From Ruegeria arenilitoris (GTDB taxonomy: Bacteria > Pseudomonadota > Alphaproteobacteria > Rhodobacterales > Rhodobacteraceae), in NCBI RefSeq assembly GCF_013030985.1, contig NZ_WPYP01000001.1:682001-746000 (forward strand): 64,000 bases of DNA. The letters run 5' to 3'. Under the pieces are notes generated by a model that worked only from the letters and a program-made list of their open reading frames with translations, had not been told where the DNA came from and did no database searches. The position numbers and the translations under genes are program-made. Position 1 is the stretch's first letter; the number at the start of each line of letters is the position of its first letter. Shown here piece by piece: positions 19,080 through 63,352 of the stretch.

Positions 19080-19108
19080 TTGACACAAAACGTGAACATG
19101 CGTAGAAC
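19080..19108 (+). promoter_or_regulatory. lexA promoter with overlapping SOS box
   Basis: A -35 element TTGACA (19080-19085), a 17-base spacer and a -10 element TAGAAC (19103-19108). An alphaproteobacterial LexA box GAAC-N7-GAAC spans 19094-19108, covering the -10 hexamer. This predicts autorepression of lexA, the usual arrangement. Located 34-62 bases before the lexA ATG. Confidence 0.8.
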
Positions 19109-19141: not shown

Positions 19142-19840
19142 ATGCTGACCAAGAAGCAGTTGGATTTGTTGGAATTCATCCACAAACGCGTTCAGGCGGA
19201 CGGCGTTCCGCCCAGTTTCGATGAAATGAAAGCCGCGCTGGATCTGCGCTCGAAATCCGGTATCCACCGCCTGATCACGGCGCTGGAAGAACGCGGCTTT
19301 ATCCGCCGCCTCGCCCACCGAGCCCGCGCCATTGAGATTGTCAAACTGCCCGAAAGTCTGGGCGGCGAGCCGACGGCCGCCTTTAAACCGCGTGTTATCG
19401 AAGGCGACAAGCCCGAGGGCCCGCGCCCGGCGAATTTCGAACCGGTCACTGTGGACGCCATGGAACTGCCGGTGATGGGCCGCATCGCCGCAGGTGTCCC
19501 GATTGAGGCGATCAGCCATGTCTCGCACCGCGTTGCCGTTCCGGGCAGCATGGTCTCGGGCAAAGGTGAGCATTATGCGCTGGAAGTTCGCGGGGATTCC
19601 ATGATCGACGCGGGCATCAATGACGGTGACGTTGTGGTCATCCGCGAAACCAAGGTGGCGGATAACGGCGACATCGTTGTGGCGCTGGTCGAGGATCAGG
19701 AAGCCACGCTGAAACGGTTCTTCCGGCGCGGCAACGCCATCGCACTCGAGGCTGCAAACCCCGCCTATGAAACCCGCGTTCTACCCGAGGACAAGGTCAA
19801 GGTTCAGGGCCGACTGGTCGGGCTGATCCGCAGCTACTGA
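19142..19840 (+). CDS. lexA: LexA repressor (SOS regulator)
   Basis: SOS-response repressor with self-cleavage stimulated by RecA. The 232-residue protein has an N-terminal winged helix ([20 protein letters not shown], residues 4-23; [16 protein letters not shown]), the cleavage site A117-G118 in GRIAAGVP, catalytic Ser153 (RGDSMIDAG) and Lys191 (ATLKRF). Starts behind GAGG. Its 3' end overlaps the comEC 3' end by 7 bases on the other strand, with no terminator between them. Confidence 0.96.
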
Positions 19841-24778: not shown

Positions 24779-24798
24779 TCGCCGCGATTGAACGCCTA

Positions 24799-24828
24799 AG
24801 CCCCGGACCTGCGTCCGGGGCTTTTTTT
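24799..24828 (+). terminator. rho-independent terminator of gltA
   Basis: Stem AGCCCCGGAC / GTCCGGGGCT with loop CTGC followed by seven or more T residues, about 20 bases after the gltA stop. Confidence 0.85.
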
Positions 24829-24829
24829 G

Positions 24830-25894
24830 TTACAGCAGGCTCAACTGATCCCCTACCTGAGCCGGTCGGGCAAACAGATCACATCGCAGGGGCGGTGTGC
24901 GCGTCGCCAGCCCCAAACGTTTGACCGCCAACGCGAACCGCTTTGCAATCAGCCCCGCATATTCCCCTTCACCTCGCATCCGGTGACCCCAACGTGGGTC
25001 ATAGTCCCTGCCCCCGTGCATCTCGCGCAGCTTGGACATGATTTTCTCGGCGCGCGCGGGTTCGTGATCCTTCAGCCAATCCTGCCACAGTTCCGACACT
25101 TCGCGCGGCAGGCGCAACATGATCCAACTGGCGGCATCGGCACCCGCATCCCTGCCCGCTTCCAGCAGATGTTCCAACTCATGATCCGTGAGCCCCGGAA
25201 TCACCGGAGAAGTCATAACCCGCACCGGGACGCCCGCCTCGGTCAGGCGGCGAATAACGGCCAACCGCCTTTGCGGCGATGGCGCCCGCGGCTCCATCCG
25301 CCGGGACAGATTCGCATCAAGCGTGGTCAACGAAATCCCGACTCGTACCAAGCCCTTCGCCGCCATCGGTGCCAGAATATCCAGATCCCGTTCGATCAAA
25401 GCACCCTTGGTAACAATGCCGACCGGATGGTGGAACTCCTGCAAGACTAACAGGCAACCTCTTGTAATACATCGGCTATTTTCAACGGGTTGATAGAGGT
25501 CTGTATTTGTCCCCAAAGCGATGGGCGCGACTTTATACCCCTTGGAGGACAGTTCCTTGCGCAAGATATCCGCCGCGTTCGGACGGGCGATCAGGCGGGT
25601 TTCAAAGTCCAGACCCGGCGACAATCCTAGATAGGCGTGAGTCGGGCGCGCAAAACAGTAAACGCAGCCATGTTCGCACCCGCGATACGGGTTGATCGAT
25701 CGGTCAAACGGCAGGTCCGGCGAGCGATTATACGTGATCAGGCTGCGCGCGATCTCATCCCTGACATCGGTCCGCAAGGGTGGGATATCCTCTTCGATCT
25801 CCCAGCCGTCATCGCAGGGTACGGTGTCGAATTGCTCGAACCGGCCTGCTGTGTTTGTGGCGGCCCCACGGCCCCGGATATGCGGCACAGGCAT
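24830..25894 (-). CDS. PA0069-family radical SAM protein (SplB-like)
   Basis: A 354-residue radical SAM enzyme of the family often annotated PA0069 or SplB-related. It has the 4Fe-4S motif C73-x3-C77-x2-C80 (NPYRGCEHGCVYCFARPTHA), preceded by the ITYNRSPDLPFDRSINPYRG lead typical of the group, and GTNTDLYQPVE and MTSPVIPGLTD further on. Function is not established; similarity to spore photoproduct lyase suggests nucleic-acid repair but this is inference. ATG at 25894 is chosen because family similarity begins there; the longer frame to 26233 has none. It has its own promoter with an SOS box. Confidence 0.88.
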   Translation of the reverse strand: MPVPHIRGRGAATNTAGRFEQFDTVPCDDGWEIEEDIPPLRTDVRDEIARSLITYNRSPDLPFDRSINPYRGCEHGCVYCFARPTHAYLGLSPGLDFETRLIARPNAADILRKELSSKGYKVAPIALGTNTDLYQPVENSRCITRGCLLVLQEFHHPVGIVTKGALIERDLDILAPMAAKGLVRVGISLTTLDANLSRRMEPRAPSPQRRLAVIRRLTEAGVPVRVMTSPVIPGLTDHELEHLLEAGRDAGADAASWIMLRLPREVSELWQDWLKDHEPARAEKIMSKLREMHGGRDYDPRWGHRMRGEGEYAGLIAKRFALAVKRLGLATRTPPLRCDLFARPAQVGDQLSLL

Positions 25895-25898
25895 GTCT

Positions 25899-25950
25899 GT
25901 TCTCGTTATGTTCTCATTCGGGATATATATACATTTACGCAATCCGACAA
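25899..25950 (-). promoter_or_regulatory. promoter and SOS box of the radical SAM gene
   Basis: On the minus strand: -35 TTGTCG (plus 25945-25950), 17-base spacer, -10 TATATC (plus 25922-25927). A LexA-type box GTTC-N7-GTTC (plus 25899-25913) lies just downstream of the -10, over the likely transcription start, and ends 4 bases before the start codon. The arrangement predicts repression by LexA. Confidence 0.65.
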
Positions 25951-26195
25951 GCAGGCCTTGTAGTTTCGCGTAGATTTCAGCCCCGTGATCCCGACAAGAC
26001 AGGCAGAAATGGAAAATGAACGAAATGCAGGATGATCTTGCAGAAAATTCTGTCGAGCCTTGCAAAAATCTGACGTATAGGTCGGTCTCGAAACCACTGA
26101 GGTCGCAATCGTCACAGTCAAACTGCGGCGTTTTGGCCAAAACGGCAAAAATGCCACCACGGGCCGATGGTCCGCACAGCTCAGGGAAGCGCCCC

Positions 26196-26894
26196 ATGTC
26201 CGACGAAGAAGACATCGTCCTGTCCGAACTCAATGACGAAGAGCTTGTCGAACAGATGTTCGACGATCTTTACGACGGTCTGAAAGAAGAGATCGAAGAA
26301 GGTGTGAACATCCTGCTGGAACGCGGATGGACCCCCTACGACATCCTGACCAAAGCTCTGGTCGGTGGTATGACCGTTGTCGGCCATGACTTCCGTGACG
26401 GCATCCTGTTCGTCCCCGAGGTTCTGCTGGCCGCAAACGCCATGAAAGGCGGCATGTCGATCCTCAAGCCGCTGCTGGCCGAAACCGGCGCACCGCGTGT
26501 GGGCAAGATGGTCATCGGCACCGTCAAAGGTGACATCCACGACATCGGCAAGAACCTGGTTGCCATGATGATGGAAGGCGCAGGCTTCGAGGTCGTCGAT
26601 ATCGGCATCAACAACCCGGTCGAAAACTACCTGGAAGCGCTGGAAACTGAACAGCCTGACATCCTGGGTATGTCGGCCCTGCTGACCACAACCATGCCCT
26701 ACATGAAGGTCGTAATCGACACGATGGTCGAACAAGGCCTGCGCGAAGAGTACATCGTTCTGGTTGGCGGCGCGCCGCTGAACGAAGAGTTTGGCAAGGC
26801 GATCGGCGCAGACGGTTACTGCCGTGACGCAGCCGTGGCCGTTGAAATGGCCAAGGACTTCGTCTCGCGCAAGCACAACCAACTGGCCGGCTGA
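26196..26894 (+). CDS. corrinoid (B12-binding) methyl-carrier protein
   Basis: A 232-residue protein with an N-terminal helical cap domain (residues about 15-95, DEELVEQMFDDLYDGLKEEI) and a C-terminal cobalamin-binding domain with D113-x-H115-x2-G118 (VKGDIHDIGKNLV), which supplies the lower-axial histidine, plus SALLTTTMPYMK and VLVGGAPLNEEF. It shuttles a methyl group between methyltransferases, like the B12 module of MetH or MtbC/MtaC. It stands alone; no methyltransferase is adjacent. In roseobacters such a protein has been tied to a split methionine synthase, which fits. ATG at 26196 follows AGGGAAG. Confidence 0.9.
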   Translation: MSDEEDIVLSELNDEELVEQMFDDLYDGLKEEIEEGVNILLERGWTPYDILTKALVGGMTVVGHDFRDGILFVPEVLLAANAMKGGMSILKPLLAETGAPRVGKMVIGTVKGDIHDIGKNLVAMMMEGAGFEVVDIGINNPVENYLEALETEQPDILGMSALLTTTMPYMKVVIDTMVEQGLREEYIVLVGGAPLNEEFGKAIGADGYCRDAAVAVEMAKDFVSRKHNQLAG

Positions 26895-26994: not shown

Positions 26995-27660
26995 ATGCAG
27001 CAGAACAAATTGCCGGACGATGCCAGCCTGACAACCAAGGGCTACGCCGCTGATACGCAGGGGCAAATTCTGCTGCTGGCTTGCGGCGCGCTGGCGCGTG
27101 AGATTCTGGACCTTAAGAACCGCAACGGCTGGGATCACATGGCGCTGACCTGCCTACCGGCGATTTTGCATGTGCATCCGGAAAAGATCACTCAGGCGGT
27201 TCAGGAGGCTGTGGCCAAGCATCGCGATCAGTACGATCAGATTTTTGTCGTCTACGCCGATTGCGGCACCGGAGGCCTGCTGGAAAAAGCGTGCGCCGAA
27301 TTGGGTGTCGAGATGGTCAAGGGGCCCCACTGCTATTCCTTCTTCGAAGGAAATCAGGCGTTTGAAGCCCGCGGCGAGGATGAAACCACCGCCTTTTACC
27401 TGACCGACTTTCTGGCGCGGCAGTTCGATGCCTTTGTCTGGAAACCTCTGGGCCTCGACCGGCATCCCGAACTGCGCGACATGTATTTCGGCAACTACAC
27501 CAAGCTGGTCTATCAGGCACAAATCGACGACCCGGACCTGACCGCCCGCGCCCGTGACTGCGCCGAGCGGATGGGATTGGAGTTCGAGCGTCGCTTTACC
27601 GGTTATGGCGATCTGGAATCCACGTTGACGGATTGGGCAACCCGCAAACCGGCGAAGTGA
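26995..27660 (+). CDS. DUF1638 domain protein
   Basis: A 221-residue protein recognisable as DUF1638 by ILLLACGALAREILDL, LTCLPAILHVHPEKITQAV, VVYADCGTGGLLEKACAELG and GPHCYSFFEGNQAF. Several conserved cysteines and histidines suggest metal or cofactor binding. DUF1638 genes occur beside corrinoid methyltransferase components, and this one follows the corrinoid protein, so a helper role in corrinoid or methyl transfer is inferred. It converges with sufE with only 6 bases between stops. Confidence 0.8.
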   Translation: MQQNKLPDDASLTTKGYAADTQGQILLLACGALAREILDLKNRNGWDHMALTCLPAILHVHPEKITQAVQEAVAKHRDQYDQIFVVYADCGTGGLLEKACAELGVEMVKGPHCYSFFEGNQAFEARGEDETTAFYLTDFLARQFDAFVWKPLGLDRHPELRDMYFGNYTKLVYQAQIDDPDLTARARDCAERMGLEFERRFTGYGDLESTLTDWATRKPAK

Positions 27661-50819: not shown

Positions 50820-51089
50820 TCAATTTACCCTGAATTCACCCACGACATTGCGCCATTCTCCGGGCGCGATCATCTTGCGGTGCGTAAACCGGACCGAGTG
50901 CAGCGGACCTTCGATTTCGCGCTGCCAGAACTCGACAAATTTAAAGAGCTTCGGATGGTCCGGCGCCAGATCGTAATCCTGCCAGATGAACGTGTTCAGA
51001 ACGTGGATGTAGTCGGGCATGTGGTAGAAGAATTCCGCCGTTGTCAGCCCGTACCCCTTGAGCATCAATTCGGTTTCGCTTTGCTCCAT
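50820..51089 (-). CDS. usg: Usg family protein
   Basis: An 89-residue protein (MEQSETELMLKGYGLTTAEF) with the Usg hallmark YHMPDYIHVLNTFIWQDYDL and the ending EWRNVVGEFRVN. Usg genes are widespread in alphaproteobacteria, often near trp genes, with no established function. ATG at 51089 has GGAGG 6 bases ahead; a TTG four codons earlier is less likely. Confidence 0.85.
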   Translation of the reverse strand: MEQSETELMLKGYGLTTAEFFYHMPDYIHVLNTFIWQDYDLAPDHPKLFKFVEFWQREIEGPLHSVRFTHRKMIAPGEWRNVVGEFRVN

Positions 51090-51282: not shown

Positions 51283-54006
51283 GTGAGCGATACGCCAGAA
51301 ACCCCAGAAAACATGGATGAAACCCCGCCCGAGCGCCCAGTCTATGACGGCCCGACGGTGTCCATCGAATCCGAGATGCGCACGTCCTATCTGGACTATG
51401 CCATGTCGGTCATCGTCTCGCGCGCGATCCCCGATCTGCGCGATGGCCTGAAACCGGTGCATCGCCGCATTCTGTATGCGATGCACGAGACCGGGAACAC
51501 GCATGACAAGGCGTACCGCAAGTCGGCCCGTCCGGTCGGCGATGTGATGGGTAAGTACCACCCGCATGGTGACAGCGCGATCTATGACGCGCTGGTGCGG
51601 ATGGCGCAGGATTTCTCGATGTCGCTGCCTCTGTTGGACGGTCAGGGCAACTTTGGTTCGATGGACGGCGATAACCCGGCGGCCATGCGTTACACCGAAG
51701 TGCGGATGGACAAACCCGCGAGCGCCCTGCTGGCAGACATCGAAAAAGAGACGGTCGATTTTCAGGACAACTATGACGGCAAGGATCGGGAGCCGACCGT
51801 CCTGCCCGCCCGGTTCCCGAACATGCTTGTCAACGGTGCCGGTGGTATCGCCGTGGGTATGGCGACGAATATCCCGCCGCACAACCTTGGTGAAGTCGTT
51901 GACGCCACTCTGGCGCTGATCGACGACCCGGACCTGACCTCGGAACAGCTGATCGAATATGTCCCCGGCCCGGATTTCCCGACCGGAGGCGTCATGCTGG
52001 GCCGGTCCGGTGCGCGCAAGGCATATCTTGAGGGTCGTGGCAGCGTTATCATCCGCGCCAAGACCCGCGTGGAAGAGATCCGCAGGGACCGCTATGCCAT
52101 CGTCGTGGACGAAATCCCCTATCAGGTGAACAAGGCCGCGATGATCGAAAAGATCGCCGAAGCCGTGCGTGAAAAACGCATCGAAGGCGTCGCCCACGTT
52201 CAGGATGAATCCGACCGCAACGGCGTGCGCGTCGTGGTCGAACTGAAACGCGATGCGACGCCCGAGGTGGTCTTGAACCAGCTCTATCGTTTCTCACCGA
52301 TGCAGACGTCGTTTGGCTGCAACATGTTGGCGCTGAACGGTGGCCGCCCCGAGCAGCTAACCCTGCGCCGGTTCCTGACCTCCTTCATCGACTTCCGCGA
52401 AGATGTTGTTGCCCGCCGCACCGCCTATGACCTGCGCAAGGCACGTGAACGCAGCCACATCCTGTGTGGTTTGGCCGTGGCCGTGTCGAACGTGGACGAA
52501 GTGGTCGCCACCATCCGTTCGTCGGCCGACGCCGCCGAGGCGCGCGAAAAGCTCATGACCCGCCGTTGGCCTGCCGCCGAGATCGAAGGTTATCTGCGTC
52601 TGATCGACGATCCGCTGTCCAAGATGAATGATGACGGCACCTATAACCTGACCGAGGTTCAGGCCCGCGCCATCCTCGACCTGCGCCTGCAGCGCCTGAC
52701 CCAGATCGGCGTCAAAGAGGTCACGGACGAGTTGGAAGAACTGGCGGCCAAGATCAAGGAATATCTGGATATTCTGTCCTCGCGCGAACGCATCATGTCG
52801 ATCATCGGTGATGAGCTGCGCAGCGTACGCGAGCAGTTCGCCGTGCCGCGTCGCACCGAGATCGTCGACTGGTCCGGTGACATGGAAGACGAGGACCTGA
52901 TCGAGCGGGAAGACATGGTCGTGACCGTCACTTCGGGCGGTTACATCAAGCGCACGCCGCTGGCCGATTTCCGGGCCCAGAAACGCGGCGGCAAGGGCCT
53001 GTCGGGGATGCAGACCAAGGAAGAGGATGTGGTTACCAACCTCTTCGTGGCCAACACCCACACGCAGCTGCTGTTCTTCACTACCGACGGGATGGTCTAC
53101 AAACTCAAGACCTGGCGCTTGCCGCAATCGGGTCGCACCGGCAAGGGCAAAGCGATCGTCAATATCCTGCCAATTCCAACCGGCGTCTCCATCGCGGCGA
53201 TCATGCCAGTGGATGTCCCGGATGAAGAATGGGAGAACCTGCAGATCGTCTTCGCCACCAGCGCGGGCGACGTGCGCCGTAACCGCCTGTCGGATTTCAC
53301 CAATGTCCGCCGCAACGGAAAGATTGCGATGAAACTGCCCGAGGATGTGGAACTGGTAAACGCCCGCATCTGCTCGGAAGACGAAGACGTGATGCTGGTC
53401 ACCAATTCGGGCCGCGCAATCCGCTTCCGGACCACCGACGTGCGCGTCTTCAACTCGCGCGAATCCACTGGTGTACGCGGCATCAGGCTGACGAACGGCG
53501 ACCGTGTTGTCTCGATGTCCGTCATCCGCCACTTTGAGGCCGGGCCGGACGAACGCGCCGCCTATCTCAAAATGCGTCGTGCCGTGGCAGGCATTGCCGA
53601 TGATGGTGAGACCGATGAGGATGAAGCAACCCCCGGCACCATCACGCAGGAACGTTATGCCGAGATGTCGGCCGCCGAAAACCTGATCCTGACGATTACG
53701 ACGGGCGGTTCGGGCAAGCTCAGCTCCAGCCACGATTACCCGGTCCGCGGACGCGGTGGTATGGGGGTCGCGGCGATGGACAAGGCGATGCGCGGCGGTG
53801 AACTTGTTGCCTCGTTCCCGGTTGAGATTGACGACCAGATCATGCTGGCCACCTCCAAGGGTCAGTCGATTCGGGTGCCGGTGGACGGCATTTCCTTCCG
53901 ATCCCGCAGCGCAGGCGGCGTGAAGGTGTTCAACACCGGCAAGGGCGAAGAGGTCGTCAGCGTCGCCTGGATCGCCGATCAGGGTGAAGAAGACACCGAG
54001 GAATAA
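51283..54006 (+). CDS. gyrA: DNA gyrase subunit A
   Basis: Breakage-rejoining subunit of gyrase, introducing negative supercoils. The 907-residue protein has the catalytic Tyr137 in [10 protein letters not shown] and a quinolone-determining region [19 protein letters not shown] in which Ser98 and Asp102 occupy the positions of E. coli Ser83 and Asp87, both in the sensitive state. The C-terminal beta-pinwheel contains a GyrA-box-like segment ([10 protein letters not shown]) and ends in an acidic tail. The start is GTG at 51283 ([10 protein letters not shown]); an ATG at 51313 is less consistent with relatives. Confidence 0.95.
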
Positions 54007-62578: not shown

Positions 62579-63352
62579 TCAAAGGGCCGTCCAGCCACCA
62601 TCCACGGAAATCGTCGTACCCGTGATCTGCGCCGCCGCGTCAGAGCACAGGAACACTGTCGTACCACCCAGTTGCTCGACCGTTGCGAACTCTTTCGAGG
62701 GTTGCCGCTCCAGCATGACGTTCTTGATCACGTCCTCGCGGCTCATGTCGTATTCCTTCATCGTGTCTGGGATCTGCGCCTCGACCAGCGGCGTCAGCAC
62801 ATAGCCCGGGCAGATCGCGTTGCAGGTGATCGGCTCCTGCGCGGTTTCCAGTGCCACTGTCTTGGTCATCCCGACGACGCCATGTTTCGCCGCGATGTAG
62901 GCCGCCTTGAAGGGTGATGCCGTCAGCCCGTGCGCCGAAGCGATATTCACGATCCGTCCCCAGCCGGCCGCGCGCATCATCGGCAGCGCCGCCGCCATGG
63001 TGTGATAGGCCGAGTTCATGTTGATCGCGATGATCGCGTCCCATTTGTCCACCGGGAACTGGTCGATCGGCGCGACGTGCTGAATGCCCGCGTTGTTCAC
63101 CAGAATGTCGCAAGCCCCCGCCTTTTCGATCAGCGCGCGGCACTCACCACCGACGGACATGTCCGCTTTGATGTAACGCGCCTTGGTGCCGGTCTCTTGC
63201 GAAATCTCGGCGGCCAGCGCGTGATCTTCCTCCCGGTCGGTGAACGAGTTCAGAACTACGTCGGCCCCGGCCTTCGCCAGCTCGCGTGCGACGCCCAAAC
63301 CGATCCCCGAATTCGACCCCGTGATGATCGCTGTTTTTCCCGAAAGGTTCAT
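62579..63352 (-). CDS. bdhA: 3-hydroxybutyrate dehydrogenase
   Basis: Oxidises D-3-hydroxybutyrate to acetoacetate with NAD during polyhydroxybutyrate use. The 257-residue SDR has TGSNSGIGLGVARELAKAGA, DILVNNAGIQHVAPIDQFP, NIASAHGLTASPFKAAYIAA (Ser and Tyr/Lys active site) and ICPGYVLTPLVEAQIPD, closely matching the BDH family. ATG at 63352 follows GGGAGAGAG. Confidence 0.93.
   Translation of the reverse strand: MNLSGKTAIITGSNSGIGLGVARELAKAGADVVLNSFTDREEDHALAAEISQETGTKARYIKADMSVGGECRALIEKAGACDILVNNAGIQHVAPIDQFPVDKWDAIIAINMNSAYHTMAAALPMMRAAGWGRIVNIASAHGLTASPFKAAYIAAKHGVVGMTKTVALETAQEPITCNAICPGYVLTPLVEAQIPDTMKEYDMSREDVIKNVMLERQPSKEFATVEQLGGTTVFLCSDAAAQITGTTISVDGGWTAL

Follow-up and report, generated by a model that had tools for sequence, protein, structure and literature searches.

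LexA control and a clamp-type C-terminal tail point to a DNA-damage role for a PA0069-family radical SAM protein of Ruegeria arenilitoris

Spore photoproduct lyase (SPL) requires a fourth cysteine as hydrogen donor, together with a tyrosine relay (PMC3742179). Genes described as SPL-like have been connected with LexA before. According to a paper of 2012, LexA regulates splB in alpha- and beta-Proteobacteria; the gene is described there as an SPL homologue and read as an SPL or photolyase (PMC3323433). A paper of 2021 places COG1533 under LexA in Bacteroidetes (PMC8565304). SplB-like genes are also described in operons with ImuB-C (PMC3765255, 2013), and an RNA-seq table for P. fluorescens lists a 'DNA repair photolyase SplB' among the genes raised by a plant polyphenol (PMC5435343). 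The other relevant group of described proteins comprises those that bind the sliding clamp DnaN by a short peptide. Its consensus is QL[S/D]LF or more generally QxxLF (PMC12309361), it has been revised to Q-aliphatic-x-[L/M][F/L] (PMC13254535), and it is often C-terminal (PMC4549789).

The DNA analysed here, referred to as the window, is a stretch of 64,000 nucleotides from R. arenilitoris (contig NZ_WPYP01000001.1, positions 682,001 to 746,000 of the forward strand). It contains a radical SAM gene of the PA0069 family and, as the original prediction had noted, lexA with its own box (Table 1). Our main reading, to which we assign a probability of about 0.6, is that the radical SAM gene belongs to the LexA (SOS) regulon and encodes an SPL-fold enzyme that is brought to DNA by a C-terminal clamp-binding peptide.

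Table 1. Features of the window relevant to the radical SAM gene and its regulation (position 1 is the first nucleotide of the window).
Feature	Position	Strand	Basis or remark
LexA box of lexA, GTTCTACGCATGTTC	19094-19108	-	pattern scan
lexA	19142-19840	+	TIGR00498, 185.7 bits (cut-off 110.95)
Terminator-like hairpin	24798-24823	+	between citrate synthase and radical SAM gene
PA0069-family radical SAM gene, 354 aa	24830-25894	-	ATG at 25894, stop 24832-24830; NF033668, translation, Pfam Radical_SAM
Codons of C-terminal QLSLL	24833-24847	-	match to clamp motif QL[S/D]LF / Qxx[L/M][F/L]
GTNTD, residues 128-132	25499-25513	-	by eye, counterpart of the SPL ACTSD segment (hydrogen-donor Cys); Thr here
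Radical SAM cluster motif C73-EHG-C77-VY-C80	25655-25678	-	Cx3CxYC; three cysteines invariant in 84/84
LexA box GTTCTCGTTATGTTC	25899-25913	+	GAAC-N7-GAAC on the coding strand; pattern scan and orthologue conservation
-10 element TATATC	25922-25927	-	read from the sequence, 17 nt below -35
-35 element TTGTCG	25945-25950	-	TTG at the same distance from the box in 25/25 genus members

The family named by the original prediction is borne out, as the protein of the window (P0001) scores 505.6 bits against the PA0069 model NF033668 (cut-off 360; model positions 1-348 of 348; type hypoth_equivalog in NCBIfam) and 73.5 bits against Pfam Radical_SAM (PF04055). The Rv2578c family (NF038135) is a sister family, against whose model P0001 remains at 237.5 bits, below the cut-off of 430. 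Residue conservation was read from an alignment of 84 sequences, made up of P0001 and 83 of 107 less redundant orthologues. No relative of solved structure was found by phmmer at E up to 1, and a profile search against solved structures returned nine sequences at E up to 10, the best being SkfB (0.00045). A defence protein was considered and rejected, P0001 having no PADLOC match. The source genome also encodes a paralogue (G000:C5:102378-103124; L243 3358-4242) that is 33% identical and ends in KAKSLVEV. It lacks the clamp-type tail, and no LexA box lies close to its start. Among 41 relatives searched, only the source genome and G011 gave a second radical SAM match.

On the coding strand of the radical SAM gene, the -35 element is followed by a 17-nt spacer, the -10 element, 8 nt, the box GAACATAACGAGAAC (25913-25899), 4 nt, and the start codon, an arrangement in which the LexA box lies between the -35/-10 pair and the ATG just as it had been predicted. 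A strict sigma-70 scan of 24780-26200 called no promoter. The TTGTCG/TATATC pair, weak as it is, is nevertheless credible because in 25/25 genus members the box is preceded, 35-40 nt upstream, by a TTG. LexA bound to this box would cover the transcription start and the ribosome-binding region.

The bare count of the pattern is weak evidence. GTTC-N7-GTTC occurs four times in the window against 2.3 expected, a number that 19 of 100 shuffles reach, and is not significant there by itself; genome-wide it occurs 223 times, and the same pattern in reverse 106 times. The significance of the box comes from its position and from its conservation in orthologues. Three genes of the source genome served as positive controls: lexA, recA, and uvrA all have the pattern upstream, the recA box 95 bp and the uvrA box 85 bp from the matched coding regions. 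Two more minus-strand matches are present in the window, one upstream of a gyrA ORF (match 50988-51002, ORF 51283-54006) and one within a short-chain dehydrogenase gene (63242-63256).

The box was found in 25/25 genomes of the genus (source genome included), 235-245 nt upstream of the codon for the first cluster cysteine, and in 69 of 80 wider orthologues, as compared with 17 of 2503 background windows of 300 bp. The wider set is the best 80 named of 587 confirmed orthologues and overlaps the genus set for close Ruegeria. Such a scan had been proposed with the original prediction, for which a lack of boxes upstream of orthologues was to count as contrary evidence; boxes are there. The near-chance counts in the window would suit a chance match, but the conservation in these two sets, together with the turnover described below, is against it; the orthologue counts refute it, and the probability left to it is negligible. 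Of five loci outside the genus, four have the box in the stretch scanned, and in L058, the remaining one, it lies farther upstream. Of the 11 loci in the wider set that lack an exact copy, four are not alphaproteobacterial by title (L123, L124, L125, L140), and five have a copy with one mismatch at the usual place (L083, L085, L103, L115, L118). No credible copy of GTTC-N7-GTTC was seen in L098 and L139 of the 80-locus set.

The position of the box has changed during evolution of the group. In Ruegeria it reads GAAC-N7-GAAC and directly precedes the start codon, and in ten other Rhodobacterales loci it reads GTTC-N7-GTTC and lies at least 254 nt before the cysteine. Both boxes are present in two members of the genus, L050 and L054, the second box being located between the TTG and TAAATT/TAGATT. 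LexA control thus appears to have been kept though the site of the box was replaced, and therefore selection for the regulation is suggested.

Outside the class, CTGT-N8-ACAG, which we take to be the E. coli-type LexA box, lies upstream in 26 of the 40 located orthologues (background 3/765). From among the matches listed with coordinates, 40 outside the class were taken; of the 44 loci scanned in all, the gene was located in every one except L125, L181, L194, and L198. The other 14 of the 40 lack an exact CTGT-N8-ACAG upstream. Eight loci without it (L173, L177, L180, L183, L189, L193, L195, L203) have QG-type tails (QGSLF, QGQLF, QGELF) and may represent a lineage that uses a different LexA box; as an exception, L174 combines a QGSLF tail with CTGT-N8-ACAG. 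A third type of box, GAAC-N4-GTTC, which PMC3323433 gives as the LexA motif of Gram-positive bacteria, was found in two of the four actinobacterial relatives retrieved. These four represent the Rv2578c side of the comparison, where membership by model is given for the one relative examined (L225, 506 bits). Taken at the level of sequence, LexA control of the radical SAM gene is well supported.

This regulation was described by the original prediction as pointing to an undescribed role, a novelty that does not hold. LexA control of an SPL-like gene is not new and was published in 2012; it counts as known because PMC3323433 and PMC8565304 report LexA control of splB and COG1533, respectively. 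What the window shares with the splB of the alpha- and beta-proteobacterial regulon is a radical SAM gene of SPL-like type preceded by a LexA box. The differences are that the gene of the window is of the PA0069 family and fails the SPL family models, whereas the 2012 reading is SPL or photolyase, and that a clamp-type tail, a feature of the PA0069 family, is not mentioned in the available portion of that paper. P. denitrificans and S. meliloti are both on the species list of PMC3323433, and their PA0069-family genes have GTTC-N7-GTTC upstream, in strains possibly other than those of the paper. Because of these boxes and of the rarity of SPL model TIGR03886, which is exceeded in 5/398 sampled genomes of the phylum and 0/41 relatives, the 2012 splB most likely belongs to the PA0069 family. 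Searches of the open-licence literature found no paper joining PA0069 with radical SAM, nothing joining LexA, SOS, Rhodobacteraceae, and radical SAM, and, for COG1533 with SOS and LexA, nothing beyond already known work.

The fold of the protein was compared with solved structures by means of an AF2 model (mean pLDDT 86.7). Foldseek ranks 1-6 are all SPL. Six SPL entries have Z scores of 20.2-20.6, the best being 4fhf (Z 20.6 over 262 residues, 3.1 A, 14% identity over the aligned part), and the next match is pyruvate formate-lyase activating enzyme at 15.3. SkfB, SuiB, and viperins follow at 13.2-14.9. SPL (PDB 4FHC-4FHG) is the nearest fold, and the protein has in common with it the cluster motif and a tyrosine next to the cluster, invariant here as Y79 (84/84; Y97 in B. 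subtilis).

The SPL family models and the fourth cysteine give the opposite answer. P0001 reaches 14 bits against TIGR03886, whose cut-off is 437.55; it is unlisted for the second SPL model, TIGR04070, at E up to 10, where two relatives also scanned reach at most 10.7 bits (cut-off 400). A fourth conserved cysteine was sought in the 84 aligned sequences, and only the three cluster ligands are invariant or nearly so. The second SPL tyrosine, at the relay position (Tyr99, B. subtilis), is Phe in 67/84 and Tyr in 17/84. The counterpart of the hydrogen-donor cysteine was placed by eye at GTNTD, since hhalign of the PA0069 family against SPL-type proteins covered residues 158-321 only, and the absence of a fourth conserved cysteine in the alignment is independent of this placement. 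The PA0069 protein thus shares the SPL fold and fails the SPL family tests, and the relation to SPL claimed by the original prediction stands for the fold, not for the family. A true SPL was rejected on the family models and the missing cysteine. An SOS-regulated SPL repairing thymine dimers, the 'splB photolyase' of PMC3323433, would explain the lead of 5 Z units that SPL has over any other fold and the invariance of the cluster-side tyrosine; it is unlikely in view of the bit scores, the lack of the cysteine that SPL needs (PMC3742179), and the Phe at most relay positions. Probably the enzyme either targets a lesion different from spore photoproduct or dispenses with the cysteine relay that SPL uses.

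Another feature that sets the protein apart from SPL, besides LexA control, is its QLSLF-type C-terminus, on which the original prediction is silent. The protein of the window ends in GDQLSLL, and the tail motif is present in 25/25 genus members. Among 150 orthologues, which include close relatives of one another and are not independent, 132 end exactly in QxxL[FL] and 144 have Qxx[LM][FL] within nine residues of the end. Position 2 of the motif is L, I, V, A, or M in 125/150; the stricter published form (L, I, V, or A) holds for 105/150 overall and for 13/44 outside the class. In the 84-sequence alignment Q350 is invariant (84/84) behind a variable, gapped linker, and position 2 is Gly in 13/84. 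Neighbouring greedy ORFs, a background that is partly spurious, gave 0/1023 for the exact end and 3/1023 for the looser near-end pattern. A better control is provided by 423 neighbours with homologues in other loci, none of which has either pattern (0/423).

The four actinobacterial relatives end in QLTLL, QLRLL, QESLF, and QEPLF, two of them with Glu at position 2, and all four fit QxxL[FL]; in the Rv2578c comparison the linker before the tail is longer and variable. A Gemmatirosa relative has a QLSLGI tail. In more distant relatives (L227-L232; Paenibacillus, Runella, haloarchaea, Nostoc) the clamp motif is absent, and no PCNA-type motif was seen by eye in the haloarchaeal tails.

By its sequence, the PA0069 tail conforms to the motif of DnaN clamp clients and stands at an accessible end, like the same type of pentapeptide in PolC and transposases with a C-terminal QL[S/D]LF-type motif (PMC12309361, PMC4549789). 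Docking of the enzyme on the clamp by this tail is strongly suggested. Alternatively, LexA control may be real and the C-terminal Q-L-x-L-F may make a structural or oligomer contact instead of being a clamp motif. Model NF033668 does include the tail to its last position, and the AF2 model has a short helix at 349-352, as would be expected for such a contact; however, the mean pLDDT is 57 for the last four residues (351-354), the linker before the motif varies and is gapped, the motif recurs in a Streptomyces relative 37 residues past the end of the Rv2578c model match, and its sequence equals the published clamp consensus. We therefore consider a structural contact improbable and retain clamp docking.

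The clamp-type tail of the PA0069 family is apparently new. In contrast to the protein of the window, none of the clamp-binding proteins named in the available portions of PMC12309361 and PMC4549789 is radical SAM. No paper that connects a PA0069-like radical SAM protein with clamp binding was found in the open-licence literature; what it returned on these subjects was, by title and opening of the abstract, a paper about an antibiotic that targets DnaN and a review of DNA repair in general. The accessible text of a sliding-clamp review (PMC9690074) has no 'photoproduct', 'splB', or 'radical', and that of a RecBCD-clamp paper (PMC13254535) no 'photoproduct', 'splB', or 'radical SAM'.

In the window the radical SAM gene faces a divergent gene for a B12-binding corrinoid protein (26196-26894), with a DUF1638 protein, so named by similarity to L080, encoded beyond it (26995-27660). 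Across 120 loci the corrinoid-protein cluster occurs in 14 and the DUF1638 cluster in 26, the Pfam names being taken from one member each. Both recur as Rhodobacterales neighbours, and the opposite flank often holds a gene that, by eye, resembles a methyltransferase gene. No recognisable repair genes were found among the conserved Rhodobacterales neighbours. In 35/120 loci, all among the 80 named ones, rnhB (RNase HII) adjoins the radical SAM gene; one member was identified by Pfam and the others by tblastn. In 34 of these 35 it is on the same strand, downstream, and less than 20 nt to about 1 kb away. This neighbour hints at nucleic-acid or nucleotide repair. Within L092-L138, loci with a same-strand rnhB downstream, mutY-like genes (by eye) lie a few kb off in seven.

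The following mechanism is proposed. LexA cleavage promoted by RecA after DNA damage would open the promoter and allow the gene to be expressed. Through its tail the enzyme would then attach to DnaN at replication forks or repair patches, and a 5'-deoxyadenosyl radical would act on a lesion encountered at the fork or behind it. Since the tail matches the tag by which many DNA-repair proteins dock on the clamp, the enzyme probably acts on damaged DNA near the replication fork, and clamp docking would suit a polymerase-stalling lesion. Most likely, judging from the features described above, it is an SOS-induced, clamp-tethered radical SAM enzyme for DNA lesions other than spore photoproduct. The originally proposed role in the handling of DNA damage gains likelihood from the clamp-type tail and from the conservation of LexA boxes of more than one type.

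An enzyme that is SOS-induced and clamp-docked could instead modify something other than a lesion, such as a replisome protein or, in the manner of viperin with CTP, a nucleotide. The fold also matches SkfB, SuiB, and viperins, which modify peptides or nucleotides, and such a target would agree with that. We judge it unlikely nonetheless, given that SPL is clearly closer in Z score, that P0001 is without a match in the defence library, and that the RNase HII neighbour points to nucleic-acid repair.

Extending the lesion-directed reading to both families is more tentative. That PA0069 and Rv2578c form a widespread SOS-induced, DnaN-tethered class of radical SAM enzymes, reversing lesions at the fork without the SPL cysteine, has in our estimate slightly less than an even chance. 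We know of no earlier radical SAM client of the bacterial clamp. If the proposal is correct, the two families would be the first known, bacteria would own a replication-coupled radical enzyme that reverses DNA damage directly, and what the literature calls the 'SOS photolyase' would need a new name. The clamp tail makes the vague label 'SplB-like' directly testable. The PA0069 family is also common, with matches over the NF033668 cut-off in 171/398 sampled genomes of the phylum, far above the figure for TIGR03886.

Distant radical SAM relatives on haloarchaeal and cyanobacterial plasmids (L230, L231, L232) adjoin a gene for the three-Cys-motif partner protein TcmP, and a relative on the conjugative Runella plasmid pRUNSL02 (L229) is flanked by HipA-type genes on one side and a gene for a UvrD helicase on the other. 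Partial matches that cover 47-57% of the query at 28-34% identity occur in eleven records of phages or archaeal viruses (H41-H51), including Acidianus two-tailed virus.
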